Translations under genes and position numbers: made by a program
Notes under the pieces: generated by a model
Databases searched by the model: none
What the model was told of the DNA's origin: nothing
Seen by the model: the letters and a program-made list of their open reading frames with translations, nothing else
Source: Pseudanabaena yagii GIHE-NHR1
GTDB lineage: Bacteria > Cyanobacteriota > Cyanobacteriia > Pseudanabaenales > Pseudanabaenaceae
Reading direction: 5' to 3'
Length of the DNA: 64,000 bases
Assembly (NCBI RefSeq): GCF_012863495.1
Contig: NZ_JAAVJL010000003.1
Location: forward strand, 124,001-188,000
Shown here: positions 24,908-55,002 of the stretch, piece after piece
How the letters are laid out: each line of letters starts with the position of its first letter
Numbering within the stretch: position 1 is the first letter of the stretch

Positions 24908-25621
24908 TTATAATTTATTAGCGAGTTTAGTTTTGCGCCATTCTAAAAACCAAATAGCAGCTTGGCAGAAAGGTCTATATTTACAATTTTTTTGATTTTT
25001 CCATTCTTCAATCTCTCTCTCAATTTGCTTAAGTGTCCAGTTTCCAGTTGGGTATTTATCTATTAAAAGTTTTTTCGCTAAATCTATTGCTTCTTTACGA
25101 TACTCTTTTAACTTTTCATCATTCAAATTTAGAATAATATCTAAATCTTCAGTGATTTTATTTTGTAATTCTGTATCTTTTACATTTGCAAAAATCTCAC
25201 CAGACAAGGAATAGGTAATAACTTTTTCTGACTTATTAATCTCTAGTGGGTTCAATATATTCAGCTTAACTTCTCCATTTGCTTTACCCTTGACAAATAC
25301 ACCTTCACTACTGGTTTTACCTTTACTTTTATCACAATGTGTTTCCAAGCCAGTATCCCCATTACAAACACCTATCATATTTTCCCATCTTAAACTTAGA
25401 TCGGGATATAATTTTCTTGATAGATAATGTTCAATTTCAATAGAAGGTTTACCGCTTTTACGATCTAAACTAATACGTCTCATACAGTATGCACAAAGAT
25501 GACCTTGTTCCTTAAGTAGATCTTCCTGCCAGTCTTTTTGAGCACATTCATAGATCGCCCCTTCAGTATTACGTTTATCTGTTAAAGTCTGAGGCTCTTT
25601 CCCCTTTTTTATATATTTCAT
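24908..25621 (-). CDS. ptuB: HNH endonuclease PtuB-like (TIGR02646 type), Septu locus 1
   Basis: The 237-residue protein has an HNH/zinc-finger core: HLCAYCMRRISLD with CxxC, then SIEIEHYLSRKLYPDLSL, NMIGVCNGDTGLETHCDKSKG. This is the TIGR02646 arrangement in which the HNH nuclease is paired with an AAA ATPase. PtuB of Septu defence is thought to cut DNA or RNA when released from the ATPase. The start codon overlaps the ATPase stop as ATGA (25618-25621), so translation is coupled. Codon use is AT-rich with few HIP1 sites, suggesting acquisition. Phage defence is inferred from family and gene order. Confidence 0.85.
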   Translation of the reverse strand: MKYIKKGKEPQTLTDKRNTEGAIYECAQKDWQEDLLKEQGHLCAYCMRRISLDRKSGKPSIEIEHYLSRKLYPDLSLRWENMIGVCNGDTGLETHCDKSKGKTSSEGVFVKGKANGEVKLNILNPLEINKSEKVITYSLSGEIFANVKDTELQNKITEDLDIILNLNDEKLKEYRKEAIDLAKKLLIDKYPTGNWTLKQIEREIEEWKNQKNCKYRPFCQAAIWFLEWRKTKLANKL

Positions 25622-26922
25622 AGGAGATCAATATATGACTGCATACGCATTATTTCAAGATCATTTTCACCACGTTTTTCTTTGAGCTTTTCTAGTAATT
25701 CTTGGGCATTTTTACCATCGTATTTATCGATTAAATGATATATCTCATTAAGCTCTTTTTCGTATTCTTTCTCATACTTAGGCACATGAAAAGCGTCTTG
25801 TAGAATGGAATTACTATCACGACCTTCTGTATAAATCTCCCGATCGCTAATTTTATTGTCTTCTAGTAAAAAGACACTTTCTCTAGGTAAATGACTTAAA
25901 ACCTGTGGTGAATGTGTCGTAACAATAAATTGAATATTTGGGAAGGTATGTGTGAGTGCTGGTAGAAGCTTACGTTGCCATTGTGGATGTAAATGTAGAT
26001 CAACTTCATCAATTAATACGATGCCTTCACCTTCCAGTTTGTTATCTAAGCTTGGATTTGCGATCGCTAATCTCCGCGCAATATCTACAACCAAAGACAG
26101 CATCATTTTTTCGCCAGATGAAAGCTGTGAAAACTCAAACCTTTCTCCATCTTTATCAATAACTAGACTTGTAGTATATTGAAACTTAACAGGTGTAAAA
26201 TTATGATGACTTGGAGATCTTTCGACTCTTAAATTAACAAATCTAGCAAATCCAAATTTGTTCAGGAATGTATTAATAGCCAATCTAATGACTTCTAATT
26301 TTTCGTTTCGATATTTAAAATCTTGTAGATTCCTTTGGTTTTGATTTTCTAAATCTTCCTCTTCACGGAACCATTTAGTAAATTCATTAAATGAGTCAAT
26401 ACTACTATTAAAGGAATTTTCATATGTTAGCAATTGCTCTCTTTGATATTTGGGAATATATCCATACTTAGGACTATAAGTTTTAGTATTGTTACCAACA
26501 ACAGTTCGATTAATTGAATAACAAATAAGTATTGGCAAATTAAATAGTTCATTTCCAACAAGAGCTAGTTTTGTTTTGCTAATAAAATCATTGTAGTTCC
26601 CATCTATTAGCAATCTATAAGTTATTGAAATTTGGTAATTTTTATCATTTTCATGAGAGAAGCTCATTTGAAGTTTGTACTTTTCTGCTTTTAGGTGTAT
26701 ATCGCTATTAGTTAGTTCTTTATACGATAATGCTGATGTCTTTTTTGAATTGCAAATATCTTTAACTAATACATTCAACAAAATACTAATTGCATCTAAA
26801 ATAGCAGATTTACCTGCTCCATTTATGCCAATAAATACAACAATATTAGAGCTTTTAGGAAAAGTAATTTCACAATCTCTAAATCCGCGAAAATCTTTAA
26901 GTGTCAGCCAATTTATTTTCAT
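25618..26922 (-). CDS. ptuA: AAA ATPase PtuA-like, Septu locus 1
   Basis: The 434-residue ATPase has a Walker A motif GINGAGKS at 32-39 after the start KINWLTLKDFRGFRDCEI. The ABC-type signature is FSQLSSGEKMMLSLV, the Walker B EGIVLIDEVDLHLHPQWQ and the switch FIVTTHSPQVL. It is an SMC/RecF-like, OLD-related ATPase of the kind found with HNH nucleases in Septu. The last 60 residues, KELNEIYHLIDKYDGKNAQE and onward, form a helical C-terminus. No reverse transcriptase or retron RNA is adjacent. The HNH gene follows with a 4-bp overlap. A second, divergent pair lies at 49045-51014. Confidence 0.85.
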   Translation of the reverse strand: MKINWLTLKDFRGFRDCEITFPKSSNIVVFIGINGAGKSAILDAISILLNVLVKDICNSKKTSALSYKELTNSDIHLKAEKYKLQMSFSHENDKNYQISITYRLLIDGNYNDFISKTKLALVGNELFNLPILICYSINRTVVGNNTKTYSPKYGYIPKYQREQLLTYENSFNSSIDSFNEFTKWFREEEDLENQNQRNLQDFKYRNEKLEVIRLAINTFLNKFGFARFVNLRVERSPSHHNFTPVKFQYTTSLVIDKDGERFEFSQLSSGEKMMLSLVVDIARRLAIANPSLDNKLEGEGIVLIDEVDLHLHPQWQRKLLPALTHTFPNIQFIVTTHSPQVLSHLPRESVFLLEDNKISDREIYTEGRDSNSILQDAFHVPKYEKEYEKELNEIYHLIDKYDGKNAQELLEKLKEKRGENDLEIMRMQSYIDLL

Positions 26923-27013
26923 TTTTTTGTAATACAGATTTACTCAGTGATATTTACCCTAAGTATCACTGAGTAATTATAAAGGTTTGAGAATATTCTA
27001 AACGATCGCAACT

Positions 27014-46442: not shown

Positions 46443-47297
46443 ATGGACATTATTCATTGGTTTACAGCACCGTTGCAATACGGGTTTATGGTGAAGGCGA
46501 TTTGGGTGAGTGCCCTTGTGGGGATTGTTTGCTCAGCTTTATCTTGCTTCATGATTTTGAAAGGATGGGCGTTGATGGGCGATGCAGTATCCCATGCGGT
46601 ACTTCCGGGGGTGGTACTTGCCTATGTGATTAATATTCCCTTTGCGATCGGGGCTTTTGTGTTTGGTGTAGGTTCCGTGATTGCGATCGGCTTTATCAAA
46701 GCGAATACAAGAATTAAAGAAGATACAGTAATTGGCTTGGTCTTTACGGGGCTATTTGCTTTGGGAATTGTGCTGGTATCGAAGATCAAGAGTACCGTCG
46801 ATTTAGGACATATTCTGTTTGGGAATGTGTTGGGAATTGCCGATAGTGATATCATCCAAACCGTGATTATCAGCGTGATTACATTGGTAACGCTCGCGAT
46901 TTTGCGAAAGGATTTGATTCTCTTTTGCTTTGATGCGACCCATGCCCGTTCAATTGGTATGAATACCACATTTCTCTATTACGTGTTGCTGTCGTTGTTG
47001 TCGCTCACGGCAGTAGCAGGGTTGCAAACGGTAGGAATTATCCTCGTTGTGGCGATGTTGATTACCCCCGGAGCAACTGCCTATTTATTGAGCGATCGCT
47101 TTGACCATATGATGTTAATTGCGATGGCTTCGGGGATGTTTGCCAGTGTGATGGGGACTTACATCAGTTATCACATTGATGGCTCGACGGGGGGCTGTAT
47201 TGTGGTTTTACAAACATTGTTATTTTTGGCGGCGATGATTTTTGCACCGAAGCATGGGATGCTAGCGCGATCGCGTCAACAAGTTTCTGAATCCTAA
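46443..47297 (+). CDS. mntB: Manganese ABC transporter permease MntB
   Basis: The 284-residue ABC-3 type permease has about eight hydrophobic segments. Family signatures are SALSCFMILKGWALMGDAVS followed by HAVLPGVVLAYVINIPF, plus VGIILVVAMLITPGATAYLL. It forms the membrane channel of the mntCAB importer. The end overlaps the convergent pentapeptide-repeat gene by 4 bp. ATG at 46443 is preceded by an A-rich leader rather than a clear Shine-Dalgarno sequence. Confidence 0.93.
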   Translation: MDIIHWFTAPLQYGFMVKAIWVSALVGIVCSALSCFMILKGWALMGDAVSHAVLPGVVLAYVINIPFAIGAFVFGVGSVIAIGFIKANTRIKEDTVIGLVFTGLFALGIVLVSKIKSTVDLGHILFGNVLGIADSDIIQTVIISVITLVTLAILRKDLILFCFDATHARSIGMNTTFLYYVLLSLLSLTAVAGLQTVGIILVVAMLITPGATAYLLSDRFDHMMLIAMASGMFASVMGTYISYHIDGSTGGCIVVLQTLLFLAAMIFAPKHGMLARSRQQVSES

Positions 47298-47809
47298 TCA
47301 ATTCGCATCCCTTCTGTAACAGGATCAAAATTTGTTGGTAGTTTGGTACTAAGGCTATATTTTGCACCTGTAAACTTAGCTTCAGTAAATACGGCTTCAG
47401 ATAGGTCAGCACTACTGAGATTTGCTTCACTGAAGTCTGCTTCTCGGAGTCTTGATTGGCTTAAGTTGGCATTCAATAAAATTGCTCCGTTTAAGGAAGC
47501 CTTAAGTAATATTGATTTGATTAGGGTTGCACCTGTCATTAACGAGCGACTTAGGTTTGCACCTGTGAGATTGGCGCGACTTAATTCAACTCGATTGAGA
47601 ATGGCAGTTGATAGATCTGCTTGAAACAAAAGCGCAGAGCTAAGATCAGTCCCTGTCAGATCTGCTTTTCTGAGGCTTGCCCGACTTAGATTAATCTCTT
47701 TTAATACCAAGCCGCTTAAGTTAGCACCATCTAATTCGGAGCCTTCAAAGTTACGCTCTCCTTGATTATATTGGGTTAATAATTGTTCAGCACTACTTAC
47801 TTTTGCCAT
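47294..47809 (-). CDS. Pentapeptide repeat protein
   Basis: The 171-residue protein consists largely of A(D/N)LSx repeats, such as LDGANLSGLVLKEINLSRAS and ANLTGANLSRSLMTGATLIK, which fold into a right-handed quadrilateral beta-helix. The first 25 residues (AKVSSAEQLLTQYNQGERNF) are a helical cap. Cyanobacteria encode many such proteins, mostly of unknown function. The gene is convergent with mntB and overlaps its last four bases. ATG 47809 is clear. Confidence 0.88.
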   Translation of the reverse strand: MAKVSSAEQLLTQYNQGERNFEGSELDGANLSGLVLKEINLSRASLRKADLTGTDLSSALLFQADLSTAILNRVELSRANLTGANLSRSLMTGATLIKSILLKASLNGAILLNANLSQSRLREADFSEANLSSADLSEAVFTEAKFTGAKYSLSTKLPTNFDPVTEGMRID

Positions 47810-47865
47810 GCATCTATACCTGTTATGTACTTTTCTGGATTCTAGAATAACCTAAAGGTTAATTT

Positions 47866-48690
47866 TTATTTACCTGCGCTTAAGAGTGGAGCATACATCA
47901 TCAGAGCATGATTTTCGGCGATCAATTCTTCATCGAGAAGTTGGTTTGTATGGCGATCGCAAATTTTACGAAAAAGCTGATTTTGACGCATATATTTTCC
48001 TGCGACGGGGCCACTAATAAGGTGATTCTTTTCCACGATTTCATATCTATAATGACTTTCCATATCAGAATGGATCGCTCCGCATAGATGCTCATCGGTT
48101 AGCCATAGACAAAGCTGATACTGATGTGGTGTTTTGTTCTCAATTTGCAGGTCGATGTAGTTGTAGGAGACAGTTGCGCCACTGCCAAAGGGTAATGTGC
48201 GATTGACATCTGGGAAAACGTCATAGCCATGTCGCCAGCGTTCTCTGACCGATAGCGGTGAATGTATTGTCATCCAATAGATGAGGTTGGCGAGTTGACA
48301 TAAGCCGCCGCCATAGCCAGTGCTGACTTTACCATTGTCTAAAACCATGCCTAGTTTAAATCCCTTCTGTTTGGTGGGATTGCCGACTAAATACCAAAAG
48401 GAAAAGACTTGGTTGGGCTGAATCACTAATCCATCAATCTGCGCGATCGCTAGTCGTAGGTTTTCGATTTTGTTATATTGCAGCCACATTTCTACGTCTT
48501 TGAGTTGGCGCAGTAGGATCGACTGATGGGTAAAGATTTGAACGGGTAGGCGATCGCGTTTAAGTTCAGTGGCAAATTTGCGATCGCTAAAAATCCACTC
48601 AAGGCGACGTTTGAGAATGTAGAAGTAGCGCCCTAACCATAATCTCAATTTACTTCGTTTGATTGTCTGTTGAAGATTATGGTTTTGCAT
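47866..48690 (-). CDS. VanW family protein
   Basis: The 274-residue protein has the VanW core at about residues 65-200: NLRLAIAQIDGLVIQPNQVF, SFWYLVGNPTKQKGFKLGM and the conserved VSTGYGGGLCQLANLIYWM, followed by PFGSGATVSYNYIDLQI. VanW proteins are linked to vancomycin resistance clusters and cell-wall or spore functions, but no biochemical role is settled. There is no signal peptide; the N-terminus is basic (IKRSKLRLWLGRYFYILKRR). A small predicted gene lies 24 bp upstream on the same strand. Confidence 0.88.
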   Translation of the reverse strand: MQNHNLQQTIKRSKLRLWLGRYFYILKRRLEWIFSDRKFATELKRDRLPVQIFTHQSILLRQLKDVEMWLQYNKIENLRLAIAQIDGLVIQPNQVFSFWYLVGNPTKQKGFKLGMVLDNGKVSTGYGGGLCQLANLIYWMTIHSPLSVRERWRHGYDVFPDVNRTLPFGSGATVSYNYIDLQIENKTPHQYQLCLWLTDEHLCGAIHSDMESHYRYEIVEKNHLISGPVAGKYMRQNQLFRKICDRHTNQLLDEELIAENHALMMYAPLLSAGK

Positions 48691-48714
48691 GGTTTTCTCA
48701 AGGGTGAGATTAGG

Positions 48715-48858
48715 TCAGGCTTGCCAAATACTAAGAATTGCATCGGCAATTTTCTTGACGGGTTCGATGAGGCTAGCTGCTTTGCTAATTAAGCCTGTGA
48801 AGGCATCGAGCAAAATCGGGAGCATTCCCTTTTTTTGTGACGGATCTTTTGCCGACAT
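48715..48858 (-). CDS. Predicted 47-residue protein upstream of the VanW gene
   Basis: ATG at 48858-48856 opens MSAKDPSQKKGMLPILLDAF and continues TGLISKAASLIEPVKKIADA to a stop at 48717-48715. The predicted product is an amphipathic or membrane-seeking helix with a basic N-terminus. It lies 24 bp before the VanW start on the same strand. I see no clear ribosome binding site. It could be a small membrane peptide; its reality needs support from homologues. Confidence 0.4.
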   Translation of the reverse strand: MSAKDPSQKKGMLPILLDAFTGLISKAASLIEPVKKIADAILSIWQA

Positions 48859-49044
48859 GTTGCCAATGTTGAATAAAAAATGAGAATGGATTTTACGATG
48901 TGTATTGCCAGTCTAGACTTTTTTATCTCAAACTACAGTTATAGGTTGATCTCCTTCTAAAATATAAAGAAGGGGGGTTAGTCTAATTTTTCTCGGATGT
49001 CGCTACAATAAATAGAAAATCAAGTTTATTGGTGTAAAGCAGCT

Positions 49045-50388
49045 ATGCATATAGAAAAGTTGCGGATGCAAAACTTTAGGGGCTTTAAAGATGTCACCAT
49101 AGATTTTCCATCAAATCTTGCTGTTTTTATTGGTGTGAATGGCTCAGGTAAATCAAGCATCATTGACTGTTGTGCTTTGTTCTTATCTTTACTAGTTACC
49201 TCAGTTAGGATGTTTCGCGATTTTCATGATTCTGAACCTCCAAGCATTTCAGAGAGTGATATTACAATTGGTTATGATGAAACTCAAAATCAAATAGATG
49301 TTTTATTGGATTTAAAAAGACTAAGCTTTCCACTTATATTGACGAGAAAATCATCTCGTGAGATGAATCTTTTCACAAGAATAAATACATCGGAATCTAT
49401 TAAAGAAGGGGAAAAAGTTATATTTCATAATGAAAGCTACTATGGATTAGATTCAGTTTTTTCAGAAGTTGTGAATGATTTTTATCAGATTTTAACTAAT
49501 AAGCTTAGTGATGAGAATATTTACGATGGATTCCCAATATTAGTTCATTATTCAACTGATAGAGCAGTAAATGAAATTGTTTTAGATAGTGATCAAAAAA
49601 ATCTTAATATTCCAGCATTAGCTTATGATTATGCGATCACAAAAAAAGTTGATTTCACTGATTTCTTTGTTTGGTATAGAAATCAAGAAGACTTAGAAAA
49701 TGAAGTCAGACTAAGTGACAATCCCAATTATGTAGATCACAAGCTAAAAACCATCAGAAGTGCTATTCCTCTTTTCTTACCAAAACTATCTAACTTACGA
49801 GTAAAGCGCTCCATGCCTATACGTATGACAATGATGAAGGATGGTGATGAATTAAATATTAAGCAACTTTCTAGTGGTGAGAAAAACTTGTTGGTAATGG
49901 TTGCGGATATAGCGAGAAGATTGGCGATCGCTAATCCAGATCCTACAAAAAATGCATTAGAGGGCGAAGGAATTATTTTAATTGATGAAATAGAACTACA
50001 TTTGCATCCTCAATGGCAGCGTGATATTATTCCACGTCTTACCAGTACTTTCCCAAACTGCCAGTTTATTGTGACAACACACTCCCCTCAAGTTCTTAGC
50101 AACGTCAAAAAAGAGAACGTATTTGTTGTTGAAGATTTTCAAGTGTATCCTGCTGATGCCTATACGTTTGGGCGTGATAGTAACTCGATTTTATCTGAGC
50201 TAATGGGAGTTACTGAAAGACCAGTAGAAATTCAAAACAAACTAACCGAATGTCTATATAAGATCGATGATGGTCAAATCGAAGAAGCCAAAATATTACT
50301 TCGTGAATTGTCAGATTTGCTTGGTCATAATGACTCAGAAATTGTTAAGGCAAATACTCTGATTAGTTTTCTATCTAAGGTGAAATGA
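49045..50388 (+). CDS. ptuA: AAA ATPase PtuA-like, Septu locus 2
   Basis: The 447-residue ATPase has the start MHIEKLRMQNFRGFKDVTI and Walker A GVNGSGKSS at 30-38. Downstream are IKQLSSGEKNLLVMVADIAR, Walker B EGIILIDEIELHLHPQWQ and FIVTTHSPQVLSNVKKENVF with GRDSNSIL near the end. It shares all these blocks with the ATPase at 25618-26922 but the central 250 residues are very different, so this is not a recent duplication. The HNH gene follows with an ATGA overlap at 50385. The flanks are a VanW unit and a pentapeptide-repeat gene. Confidence 0.85.
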   Translation: MHIEKLRMQNFRGFKDVTIDFPSNLAVFIGVNGSGKSSIIDCCALFLSLLVTSVRMFRDFHDSEPPSISESDITIGYDETQNQIDVLLDLKRLSFPLILTRKSSREMNLFTRINTSESIKEGEKVIFHNESYYGLDSVFSEVVNDFYQILTNKLSDENIYDGFPILVHYSTDRAVNEIVLDSDQKNLNIPALAYDYAITKKVDFTDFFVWYRNQEDLENEVRLSDNPNYVDHKLKTIRSAIPLFLPKLSNLRVKRSMPIRMTMMKDGDELNIKQLSSGEKNLLVMVADIARRLAIANPDPTKNALEGEGIILIDEIELHLHPQWQRDIIPRLTSTFPNCQFIVTTHSPQVLSNVKKENVFVVEDFQVYPADAYTFGRDSNSILSELMGVTERPVEIQNKLTECLYKIDDGQIEEAKILLRELSDLLGHNDSEIVKANTLISFLSKVK

Positions 50389-51014
50389 AAAAGATTATTA
50401 AACAATCAGAGCCAAGATCTCTTGTAGAACATCGATCACAAGCTAATGCTAACTATGATAACTATCCAGAAAAAGATGATCTACGAAAATCATTGCTAAA
50501 AGAGCAAGGATATATTTGTTGCTACTGTATGAGCCGCATCAAATTAGATGAGATGAAGATAGAACATTGGCAACCCCAAACCAAATACATATCTCGACAA
50601 CTCGACTATAAAAATTTGCTTGGCGCTTGTATGGGGAATCAAGGAGCACGTCCTCAAAACCAACATTGCGACACTAGAAAAGGAGATAGTGAAATTACGA
50701 TCAATCCCATTGAAGGTGATAAAAATTGTGAAAAATTAATCAAATATCGTCCTGACGGTAAAATTTACTCTGATGATTTATCTGTTAATAACGATTTGAA
50801 TGAGACTTTAAATTTAAACCTTGGTTTTTTGAAGAAAAATCGTAAAGATGCTCTTGATGTCGTAATTCGCAAACTTAATGAGAAATTCTCAAATAAAACT
50901 TGGGCTAAAATCACCGTGCAGAAGGAATTAGACAAATTGAATACAAAAGATGAAAACGGATTTTACGATGTGTATTGTCAGTTTATAGTTTCGTATCTCA
51001 AATCAAAGTTATAG
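50385..51014 (+). CDS. ptuB: HNH endonuclease PtuB-like (TIGR02646 type), Septu locus 2
   Basis: The 209-residue protein has an HNH core: GYICCYCMSRIKLDEMKIEH with CxxC, then NLLGACMGNQGARPQNQHCD followed by TRKGD. The arrangement is the same as in the shorter-range match at 24908-25621 but sequences differ widely. Start codon and ATPase stop overlap by 4 bp (ATGA), so the pair is co-translated. In Septu defence the nuclease is assumed to act after phage infection is sensed by the ATPase. No other defence gene is directly attached. Confidence 0.85.
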   Translation: MKKIIKQSEPRSLVEHRSQANANYDNYPEKDDLRKSLLKEQGYICCYCMSRIKLDEMKIEHWQPQTKYISRQLDYKNLLGACMGNQGARPQNQHCDTRKGDSEITINPIEGDKNCEKLIKYRPDGKIYSDDLSVNNDLNETLNLNLGFLKKNRKDALDVVIRKLNEKFSNKTWAKITVQKELDKLNTKDENGFYDVYCQFIVSYLKSKL

Positions 51015-51191
51015 AGCGATCGCGTAAATCCTGATTAGAAAAATCTAGAGGCTGAGTCATATATTTAGGACATTTGCCCGAAATCAAAACAGCGACAAAC
51101 ATCTAAAATATTAATAGCAAATCTCAAGATCGGCAAAACTATTGCATTTTGCTAAGTTTCGCTGACGAGTTTCGGTAAATAGGAGGCAAAA

Positions 51192-51926
51192 ATGGCTGAC
51201 ATCCAACAACTACGACTACTCGAAGAAGGAGTCGATGTTTGGAATCGGTGGCGCGATCAGCATCCAGATATCGAGATCGACTTCCAAGAAGCCCAATTAA
51301 ACATTGCAAATTTACGCTATGCCAACCTAAGCAAAGCCAATCTCGCAGACGCAGATCTCTATCATGCAAACTTGATAGAGGCGAACTTGCAATATGCAAA
51401 CTTAACGCGAGCAGTTTTAAATGGAGCGATCGCCACAGGTTCTCTCAGCCATGCCAACCTTAGTGAAGCGAACCTTTACAGTTCCATTTTTAACTTTGCC
51501 GACATGAGCTATGTGAACCTACAAAATGCCACAGCGATCGCTGCAAATTTCAATAGTGTCAATCTTCAAGGAGCGAACTTGCAAAATATCAATGCTAGTC
51601 ATGCAATCTTCTGGCAAACAAACTTGCTCGAAACGAACTTGAATAAAGCAGTTTTTTGGGGAGCAAAATTTTACTGCGCTAACTTAAGGCGATCGCTATT
51701 ACAAGAAACCGATCTTAGCGGTGCAGACCTGAGTGGAGCCGATTTGCGCGAAGCCGATCTCAGTGGAGCCGATTTGCGCGAGGCAAATTTAAGTCGAGTT
51801 AACCTAGAGGGCGCAAACTTAGAGGGGATTCGGTGGGGCAAGGATGTACGCGGGCGCGATACCAATTGGCAGAATGCGATCGGGCTTCAGTCAGCACTAA
51901 ACGTTCCTAAAGCACTCTTACGATAG
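51192..51926 (+). CDS. Pentapeptide repeat protein
   Basis: The 244-residue protein starts MADIQQLRLLEEGVDVWNRW after a strong ribosome binding site AGGAGG. From about residue 30 it is made of A(N/D)Lxx repeats, such as LRYANLSKANLADADLYHAN and, near the end, DLSGADLSGADLREADLSGA. Two almost identical 30-bp blocks around 51715-51780 show recent repeat duplication. The closing segment WGKDVRGRDTNWQNAIGLQS is a helical cap. Function is unknown. It lies 177 bp after the second Septu-like pair. Confidence 0.88.
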   Translation: MADIQQLRLLEEGVDVWNRWRDQHPDIEIDFQEAQLNIANLRYANLSKANLADADLYHANLIEANLQYANLTRAVLNGAIATGSLSHANLSEANLYSSIFNFADMSYVNLQNATAIAANFNSVNLQGANLQNINASHAIFWQTNLLETNLNKAVFWGAKFYCANLRRSLLQETDLSGADLSGADLREADLSGADLREANLSRVNLEGANLEGIRWGKDVRGRDTNWQNAIGLQSALNVPKALLR

Positions 51927-51961
51927 GATAGACATTCTATTAGTGCATTGCGTAAAAAAAT

Positions 51962-52006
51962 AGAAATTTTGGAAAGCGTGGCTTAGCTACGCTTTCCAAA
52001 ATTTCT
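51962..52006. terminator. 21-bp-arm hairpin with TTA loop
   Basis: AGAAATTTTGGAAAGCGT on the left pairs with its inverse on the right, with one G-T wobble near the loop. It ends the pentapeptide-repeat gene. The outer bases TAGTGCA and TGCACTA extend the symmetry beyond an A-run. Confidence 0.75.
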
Positions 52007-52061
52007 CTGCACTAAATTGCTATGTTAAAATCATCAAGCAACAAAACTAACTGGATTCATT

Positions 52062-52763
52062 ATGACTATTACGGTTAGCGCAAAGGTAAACGATCCAAAA
52101 GAGATTGTAGAAGTCAAGCCAGAAATTGTTTCTGATGTTTGGGTAAGAGCCTCTTGGGAAGAATTTCTAGCTCTTGCTGAAGAACCAAGCTTAGACAAGG
52201 CTAAATTTTACTATGACCAGCATCTAATGAGGATTGAAATGTCACCCATTGGACCAATTCATGCCCATGAGAATTCAATTGTTTCTAACGTCATTCGCCT
52301 ATTTGCTACTCTCGCGAATATTGTTATCTATGAGTATACCAACTGTAGTTTCAGGAAAAAGAACAACGCAGAATTTCAGCCAGATATAGCTTTTTTCTTG
52401 GGAACTGGATTGAAGATTCCACCCAGAAATAATGCTCCTGTTGATCTAAATGAGTTCGATTTACCGACCCTAGTTGTAGAAATTTCAGCAACTACTATTC
52501 AAGATGATTTAAGTTACAAACGATTGCTCTATGAGCGTTTAGGCATTCAAGAGTATTGGGCAGTGAACGCCAATACCTCAGAAGTATTTGCCTTTGCGAT
52601 CGCTGAAGGTCATAGTGGCAGAATTAGTGCATCAAGAGTTCTCGAAGGATTAGAAATTAGTATCGTCGAAGAAGCCTTAAAACGTAGTCAAGCGGATGAA
52701 GATGATGGCGCGATCGCAAGATGGTTATTACAGACTTTCGCGAAATCTCCGACCGAATCCTGA
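52062..52763 (+). CDS. Uma2 family endonuclease-like protein (DUF820)
   Basis: The 233-residue protein has the Uma2 restriction-endonuclease-like fold. NAEFQPDIAFFLGTG holds the first acidic residue, LPTLVVEISATTIQDDLSYK the E-x-S core with the following Lys, and LYERLGIQEYWAVN a later motif. The family is greatly expanded in cyanobacteria and its role is unknown. It starts at 52062 and ends 16 bp before recQ, so the two may share a transcript. Confidence 0.87.
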   Translation: MTITVSAKVNDPKEIVEVKPEIVSDVWVRASWEEFLALAEEPSLDKAKFYYDQHLMRIEMSPIGPIHAHENSIVSNVIRLFATLANIVIYEYTNCSFRKKNNAEFQPDIAFFLGTGLKIPPRNNAPVDLNEFDLPTLVVEISATTIQDDLSYKRLLYERLGIQEYWAVNANTSEVFAFAIAEGHSGRISASRVLEGLEISIVEEALKRSQADEDDGAIARWLLQTFAKSPTES

Positions 52764-52779
52764 TCCCGAATCCTAATCT

Positions 52780-55002
52780 ATGACAAGCAATCCTTTACAG
52801 CAAGCACTGAAACAATACTTTGGTTATGACTCCTTTCGTGCTGGTCAGCGTGAGATTATCGAAGCCCATCTTGCGGGGCGTGACACCTTGGCGATTATGC
52901 CCACAGGGGGCGGAAAATCCATTTGCTTTCAGTTACCAGCCTTATTAAAAACTGGTGTAACTATCGTTGTATCGCCTTTGATCGCCTTGATGCAGGATCA
53001 AGTTACAGCGCTTAAAGAGAATGGCATTGGCGCAACTTTTTTAAACAGTACTTTGTCAGGTCGAGAAACTCATCTGCGATCGCAAGCAATTTTAAATGGA
53101 GCGATTAAACTCATTTATGTTGCACCTGAACGCTTATTTGCCGAGCAGTTTATCGAATTTCTGAATATCGTTAAAAACAAAATTGGCATTGCAGGATTTG
53201 CGATCGATGAAGCCCATTGCGTCTCAGAATGGGGGCATGATTTTCGTCCTGAATATCGTCAATTGAGCCGTCTGCGACAGTTCTATCCCGATGTCCCCGT
53301 CATTGGCTTGACGGCTACGGCAACAGAACGAGTTAGAGAAGATATCATTCAACAATTGCAGTTGCAACAGCCCTACGTTCATGTTGCTAGCTTCAATCGC
53401 AATAATCTCTATTATGAAGTTGTTCCCAAACAAGGAACTGAACAATCCTATGTGGATTTGTTAAGGCAAATCAAGAGAATGCAAGGTTCAGGAATTGTCT
53501 ATTGCCTCAGTCGTAAGCGTGTCAATGAAATCGCAGAACGTTTGCGAGAGGATGGGATTGTGGCGATCCCCTATCATGCGGGTTTGAGTGCTAAGGAACG
53601 GGAAGAAAATCAGACTCGATGGATTCGGGATGATGTGCAAGTGATGGTAGCCACGATCGCTTTCGGAATGGGAATTAATAAGCCCGATGTGCGGTTTGTA
53701 ATTCATTATGACTTGCCCAAAAATATTGAAGGCTATTATCAAGAATCAGGTCGGGCTGGGCGGGATGGCGAGGATTCCCACTGTACATTATTTTTAGGCT
53801 ATGGGGATTTAGAAACGATCAAATATCTCATTGCCCAAAAGGTCGATCCACATACCAATGAGCCATTGGAAGCGGAACAAAGAATTGCTCAACAGCAATT
53901 GCGCCAAGTCGTTGACTATGCCGAAGGTGTCGCCTGTCGTCGCACCATTCTCTTACGCTATTTTGGCGAACATTTTCATGGCGATTGCGCCAATTGCGAT
54001 AACTGCCTCACGCCGAAGCCAATGGAAGATTGGACAGTGGAGGCTCAGAAATTCTTATCCTGCGTGGCAAGGGTCAAGGAACGATTTGGAGCAGGTCATG
54101 TAATTGATATTTTGCGAGGTTCAATGAATAAAAAGATTTTGCAGCATGGGCATGAAAGTCTTTCTACTCATGGCATCGGTAAAGATCGGAGTCTCGATGA
54201 ATGGCGACAACTTTCGCGATCGCTAATTCATCAAGGTTATTTAACCCAAACTACTGATGGTTATGCAATTCTCAAACTCAATGATCGCAGTTGGGAAGTG
54301 ATGCGTGGTCAGCGTAATGTGCTATTGCCGATTGAACGGGATACGGAACCTGTAACTGTTACAGAGCGCGAAACGAGCGAAAGACCTGTTGATGTGGAAA
54401 TTCTCTTTGAGAGACTTCGCCTACTACGCAAAAATCTCGCCGATGAGCAGGAAGTTCCGCCCTACGTGATTTTTAGCAATGCTACTCTCAATCAAATGGC
54501 TGAACAGCAACCCACAAGTCGCAAAGAATTTGCGAAATTATCGGGCGTTGGCGCAAAGAAATTAGAGCAGTATGCCGATGATTTTATCGCCATCATTCTC
54601 GAACATCATCTCAAATATCCACCTGCGGAACCTGAAGAATCAACAACTTCTAGGGTTAAGCAAGAATCGGTCACGCCTAAATCCAAGCTATCTAAAGCAA
54701 GTACCCAGCGTGAAACCTTGGCGATGTATGAGAATGGTCTAGATATTGATGAAATTGCTCGCGATCGCGGACTCAAACCTGCAACAGTCTGGACACATCT
54801 CGTACAACTAATTGAGGCGGGCTATGCGATTAATTGCGATCGCCTTGTAACGCCAGAACGCCAAAATGTCATTTATGAAGCTCTCGAAGCGATCGGTGGT
54901 GATTCCCTTCGTAATCTCTTCGATCATCTCCGAGAGGAATACACCTATGACGAGATTAAAATTGTGCGTGCCATCTGGCAAAACGAAAAGGAACCGCTAT
55001 AG
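52780..55002 (+). CDS. recQ: ATP-dependent DNA helicase RecQ
   Basis: The 740-residue protein has the RecQ helicase core with Walker A MPTGGGKSICFQLP and DEAH box GFAIDEAHCVSEWGHDFRP. The GMGINKPDVRFVIHYDLPK and QESGRAGRDG motifs follow. A zinc site appears in ACRRTILLRYFGEHFHGDCA and NCDNCLTPK, then an RQC domain and an HRDC domain near 540-610. An extra C-terminal HTH (ETLAMYENGLDIDEIARDRG) may bind DNA. RecQ unwinds structures during recombination and repair. It ends 5 bp before the convergent chrA stop. Confidence 0.95.
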   Translation: MTSNPLQQALKQYFGYDSFRAGQREIIEAHLAGRDTLAIMPTGGGKSICFQLPALLKTGVTIVVSPLIALMQDQVTALKENGIGATFLNSTLSGRETHLRSQAILNGAIKLIYVAPERLFAEQFIEFLNIVKNKIGIAGFAIDEAHCVSEWGHDFRPEYRQLSRLRQFYPDVPVIGLTATATERVREDIIQQLQLQQPYVHVASFNRNNLYYEVVPKQGTEQSYVDLLRQIKRMQGSGIVYCLSRKRVNEIAERLREDGIVAIPYHAGLSAKEREENQTRWIRDDVQVMVATIAFGMGINKPDVRFVIHYDLPKNIEGYYQESGRAGRDGEDSHCTLFLGYGDLETIKYLIAQKVDPHTNEPLEAEQRIAQQQLRQVVDYAEGVACRRTILLRYFGEHFHGDCANCDNCLTPKPMEDWTVEAQKFLSCVARVKERFGAGHVIDILRGSMNKKILQHGHESLSTHGIGKDRSLDEWRQLSRSLIHQGYLTQTTDGYAILKLNDRSWEVMRGQRNVLLPIERDTEPVTVTERETSERPVDVEILFERLRLLRKNLADEQEVPPYVIFSNATLNQMAEQQPTSRKEFAKLSGVGAKKLEQYADDFIAIILEHHLKYPPAEPEESTTSRVKQESVTPKSKLSKASTQRETLAMYENGLDIDEIARDRGLKPATVWTHLVQLIEAGYAINCDRLVTPERQNVIYEALEAIGGDSLRNLFDHLREEYTYDEIKIVRAIWQNEKEPL

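Follow-up and report, generated by a model that had tools for sequence, protein, structure and literature searches.

The window, meaning the whole 64,000-nt stretch of DNA that was analysed, lies in genome G000 of the genus Pseudanabaena, which is represented in our comparisons by 26 genomes. It carries two Septu type I pairs, locus A and locus B, ~22.1 kb apart (Table 1). The second had been described in an earlier note on this DNA as a divergent Septu-like pair close to the first, and this is confirmed. Locus B lies on an insert of ~2.1 kb (48873-51014), and both loci are AT-rich, with GC contents of 33.6% and 31.2% compared to 41.2% for the window.

Table 1. Coordinates of the two Septu loci and of the features around locus B
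Feature	Position	Strand	Description
ptuB (locus A)	24908..25621	-	PADLOC PtuB1
ptuA (locus A, first Septu pair)	25618..26922	-	PADLOC PtuA1; different clade from locus B
Pentapeptide-repeat gene, truncated 3' end	48689..48872	-	ORFs, Pfam
Decayed clade-B ptuB 3' tail	48870..48945	+	~76 nt; direct repeat D3; just upstream of ptuA
Spacer, relic stop to cassette	48946..48977		32 nt; short CTTCT...AGAAG inverted repeat
Promoter-side segment of cassette	48978..49044	+	67 nt before ATG; conserved TACAAT
ptuA (locus B)	49045..50388	+	447 aa; ABC/OLD-like ATPase
PtuA (locus B) motifs			Walker A GVNGSGKSS, signature LSSGEK, Walker B IILIDEIELH, H-loop TTHSPQ
PtuA hypervariable centre	49171..49689	+	Codons 43-215; windowed identity, codon comparison
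ptuB (locus B)	50385..51014	+	209 aa; HNH nuclease; 4-nt overlap with ptuA
Right junction	51014..51046		33 nt, perfect match to L082 11196-11228, right after ptuB stop; starts at HIP1 GCGATCGC

Locus B combines a motif-intact PtuA ATPase, an adjoining PtuB HNH nuclease and the PtuA fold, as expected of Septu type I, and both genes are full-length with all motifs and catalytic residues kept. The best PADLOC matches are PtuA1 (1.1e-135) and PtuB1 (8.2e-78); PtuB additionally scores 66.3 bits with TIGR02646, above the cut-off of 52.15, and is matched by the E. coli PtuB 8ee7 at 1.8e-7. An AlphaFold2 model of PtuA (mean pLDDT 76) aligns with the E. coli Septu PtuA 8ee4 at Z 37.9 and rmsd 2.4 over 359 residues, and with the PtuA chains of type I-A retrons at Z up to 38.6. 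The NCBIfam equivalog for the PtuA of retron Ec78 yields 299 bits, below its cut-off of 500. We considered and rejected a retron at this site, since no reverse transcriptase gene occurs among the ORFs and scanned neighbors of locus B, and Rfam, in which not every retron RNA (msr-msd) has a model, gives no match of any kind in the window at gathering threshold. The pair thus stands alone; judged by its sequence, it is an intact Septu type I system with a predicted anti-phage role.

The insertion site can be read against genome G023. Homology to this genome (L082) extends from the left across VanW as far as 48872 (94% DNA identity) and resumes at 51014. In the interval, G023 has the greater part of a full-length, 594-aa pentapeptide-repeat gene (L082 9311-11095), so that the insert has taken the place of most of this gene. 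The gene that follows in G023, tkt, sits at C3:395485 in G000, which implies a further rearrangement near 51047. The earlier note had proposed that the flanking genes make 47294-55002 an accessory island. That proposal is not supported: VanW and its left neighbors show 91-94% DNA identity to the relatives' chromosomes, RecQ is found in 25 of the 26 genus genomes, and Uma2 adjoins RecQ in many. The position downstream of VanW is a variable junction, occupied by Septu in G000, by the pentapeptide-repeat gene in G023, and by a DarT plus macro-domain gene and a DUF433 gene in G015 (L083:9752-11559). A second pentapeptide-repeat gene, at 51192-51926 between the Septu insert and Uma2, is absent beside RecQ in the relatives examined and has a 70% relative elsewhere in G012 (L081).

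Just inside the left junction stands a relic of a clade-B ptuB 3' end, which retains the in-frame ending NGFYDVYCQ...L* apart from two 1-nt deletions. In pairwise alignments its identity to the nearest clade-B ptuB tails is 84-86%, and its tail pattern has a chance expectation of 0.02, which means that another copy, earlier or tandem, once stood at this place. A comparable scar is, from sequence comparison, the ptuB 3' remnant of E. coli. There, 653 genomes match one E. coli ptuAB, and 180 of the 653 cover at least 80% of it; from entry H52 on, all 29 listed genomes match only ~234-272 nt around the ptuB 3' end, a remnant with no annotated gene. E. coli Septu occupies a fixed site between smrB and yfcO (L166, L167), many genomes having the remnant alone, and in strain TCM3e1 a deletion truncates ptuA.

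Other clade-B copies have a different address. Seven of them (G001, G004, G010, G013, G016, G020, and G025) lie 0.05-2.1 kb upstream of chlG, with a shuffled set of small toxin-antitoxin-type genes (PemK/MazF, ParE-like, DUF433, and DUF5615) as left neighbors, and the G003 pair sits at a contig end. The G000 pair is away from chlG, and chlG itself is cut in G000 by the start of contig C4. In the chlG-upstream copies the ptuB stop codon runs into HIP1 (TATAGCGATCGC; CGTAGCGATCGC in G025). HIP1 is common in the window (89 in 64 kb), so its position at these junctions may or may not matter. Remnants also occur upstream of chlG, as a ptuB-like end directly upstream of the gene in G019 (L149) and as a very short AAGTTATAGCG in G006 and G007 (L153 and L154); they suggest repeated gain and loss at a chlG hotspot.

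Locus A is an insert that is either present or absent at a single fixed site. Its flanks lie next to each other, 80-213 nt apart, in G023, G007, G017, G005, and G012, which have clean empty sites; the site is filled in G015 and G001, and in G004 the left flank and most of the pair are matched by a contig that then breaks off. Just upstream of locus A ptuA, at window 26930-26990, a 13-14 bp inverted repeat keeps its pairing while its sequence changes between alleles (WIN, L123, and L124), making it a candidate operator, upstream-gene terminator or RNA hairpin.

The two loci belong to separate lineages. The earlier note had remarked that the ATPases share their ends and differ in the middle and that the nucleases differ widely, and both observations hold: the PtuA proteins of A and B, 37% identical, agree at their ends and align with gaps in between, and the PtuB proteins are 32% identical. 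At least one PtuA relative is present in 21 of the 26 genomes, several of which have three. In a tree of 34 PtuA from the genus, locus A falls in a clade of 4 genomes with G015, G001, and G004 (support 100/100), and locus B in one of 8 copies, itself included (support 100/99); in a 66-sequence cyanobacterial tree A and B remain in different supported clades and are not sisters. Both loci occur in G000, G001, and G004, only A in G015, and only B in G003, G010, G013, G016, G020, and G025, and there are genomes with neither. Because these well-supported clades have members in other Pseudanabaena genomes, A and B are separate acquisitions rather than a recent duplicate, in agreement with the independent gain that the note had suggested and with the empty A sites of the five relatives. 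Its further suggestion of incompatibility control is not supported, as the three of 26 genomes that carry both are, if anything, above chance. G000 also has a third Septu-like pair at C3:348905-350505 (L093), of clade C, in which PtuB is mostly kept and PtuA centres are at best 31-55% identical.

Two other accounts of the origin of locus B deserve weighing. It might be a diverged duplicate of locus A made within the present lineage, as membership of the same family, the 22-kb spacing (three random loci in G000 fall so near in only 2.4% of draws) and a deep join of the A and B clades, which is weak in the PtuA genus tree (81/48) and moderate in the PtuB one (93/91), could indicate. We think this very improbable: copies in other genomes are nearer (PtuA 74%, PtuB up to 94%) than A and B are to each other, G001 and G004 likewise carry both types, and the wider cyanobacterial tree lacks an A+B sisterhood, which refutes duplication as a recent event; the two may still share a very old common origin. 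There is similarly little to recommend the view that locus B is a relic without function, or an artefact of assembly across a rearrangement breakpoint. The flanks are indeed apart in relatives, a ptuB relic lies upstream and chlG is cut by a contig end, but both genes are intact with all motifs, and both junctions, including the perfect 33-nt match, fit a replacement relative to G023.

Variation is unevenly spread over the PtuA of locus B and its relatives. In the comparison with relatives, DNA identity is 88-95% at 48978-49171, a stretch made up of the promoter-side segment and the opening 127 nt of ptuA, and is high again, at 86-90%, from 49859 on; between them, 49172-49858 is unalignable, with blastn breaks at 49171 and 49859 in six clade-B relatives (not G004). 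Across clades A-D, mean amino acid identity is 0.1-0.6 at residues 41-160 as against 0.84-1.0 at residues 281-360, the low N-terminal identity of clade A being due to a truncated contig. The same pattern recurs in other cyanobacterial genera (g14 type 1, 8 copies; g21, 3 copies). The centre is kept in g29, g59, g14 type 2, and clade E (0.84-0.95 aa, dN 0.02-0.09), and three of these (clade E, g14 type 2, and g59) exhibit the reverse mode, in which residues 353-447 fall to 0.53-0.77 and mean PtuB identity to 42-66%. The PtuB of L187 (g59) is nearer to one from another genus (71%) than to those of its g59 sisters, for which the lowest value in that set is 52%. The two E. coli copies compared share one allele and so carry no information on how variable the centre is.

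Median synonymous divergence in clades B-D is ~1.2 in the centre as compared to 0.4-0.7 at the ends, a difference that alignment uncertainty may inflate; this would fit exchange better than selection alone. Recombination is the putative source of the variation, although topology tests do not prove it: the AU test on clade-B ends did not reject a grouping of WIN with L106 (p 0.41), and for L113 the clade-D centre gave p 0.066. A diversity-generating retroelement was set aside by argument, the variable block being ~500 nt and not a short adenine-directed repeat. A literature search, with most subscription journals outside its reach, returned no description of a variable PtuA centre.

Taken together, the two modes suggest that PtuA varies as two modules, a diversifying centre that reads the trigger and an end that couples to PtuB. 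The fuller proposal, a modular immune receptor in which the trigger centre is swapped while the PtuB-coupling half is kept, and in which elsewhere the C-terminus is swapped along with PtuB, is tentative, and we put it at somewhat short of even odds. A plainer account holds that the centre varies merely through low constraint, as a passive linker or loop that reads no phage signal. The lowest-confidence part of the AlphaFold2 model does lie in the centre, which also has many indels; yet the centre includes secondary structure matched by solved PtuA chains, and in g59, g29, clade E, and g14 type 2 it is kept almost as well as the ends, so that it cannot drift freely. We consider low constraint unlikely. 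Less likely again is co-adaptation of the centre to a host partner such as a host tRNA or host protein in place of phage triggers, for which one can cite that PtuAB relatives cut host tRNA (PMC13096335 and PMC11555353) and that the host lineages differ. Against it, centres diverge inside a single genus with a RecQ identity of 84-98%, and substrate choice would be expected in PtuB, the better-conserved protein of these clades. As to the idea that A and B respond to different triggers, it is plausible because the centre is the variable part of PtuA, and we grade it no higher.

Our preferred reading, to which we assign a probability of about 0.6, is that locus B is a standalone Septu type I system gained apart from locus A as a compact cassette, with a sensor centre and a PtuB-coupling C-terminus in PtuA. 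Two points count against a sensor centre: part of the variable region sits within the ABC core fold rather than in a domain of its own, and the centre holds the least confident part of the model. The cassette would have moved into the site as a promoter-ptuA-ptuB unit that carries no mobility gene. If it works like the PtuAB systems already solved and tested, its PtuA would form an ATP-dependent oligomer controlling PtuB, and a phage signal, probably read by the centre (residues ~43-215), would activate the HNH nuclease PtuB, which would cut a nucleic acid, putatively its target, and so stop the infection. The C-terminus would couple PtuA to PtuB; lineages may thus change trigger via the centre, and effector via the C-terminus together with PtuB. 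If the modular reading is true, new sensors and new effectors arise in Septu independently of each other, at chromosomal sites that stay fixed. Septu itself is already known, and the useful part is the modular variation pattern. The Septu trigger is listed as unclear (PMC12198126), and the natural panel of PtuAB pairs, with near-identical PtuA ends and one differing block of ~170 residues, hints at where that trigger may be sensed and allows a test by block swap.

Searches for mobile carriers of PtuAB relatives turned up a single distant match, in a phage record without annotation, and no relative on a viral contig, and plasmid searches gave only distant relatives (<=36%). A PtuA/PtuB-like pair on an Enterobacter plasmid (NZ_CP072963.1; L165) is embedded in a type I restriction-modification operon, with hsdS on one side and hsdR on the other.

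Among known systems, E. coli Septu type I (8ee4/8ee7/8eea) shares with locus B the two-gene operon, the ATPase fold, the HNH partner and the lack of a reverse transcriptase neighbor, and a PtuA hexamer with PtuB has been described (Li et al. 2024, as cited in PMC12198126). PtuA identity between the two is only ~27% over the structural alignment, locus B belonging to a cyanobacterial clade, and it is in the clade of locus B, as opposed to the E. coli system, that the hypervariable PtuA centre is documented. Septu EcB88 likewise consists of PtuA and PtuB without retron genes; it cuts tRNA-Tyr in the variable loop (PMC13096335). For another E. coli Septu, phage DNA is reported as the target, as cited in PMC11555353. 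Type I-A retrons (Eco7/Ec78 and Ec83) employ PtuAB effectors homologous to locus B, and Eco7 cuts tRNA-Tyr (PMC11555353). The Ec83 PtuA is the best sequence match to locus B PtuA among solved structures, but retron PtuA proteins are ~542-552 aa with an N-terminal extension and an insert, and the 447-aa locus B PtuA has neither. PARIS AriA has a related ABC-ATPase fold, and the title of 8v49 calls it a sensory subunit; its match to locus B PtuA is weaker (Z ~18.8), and its effector differs.
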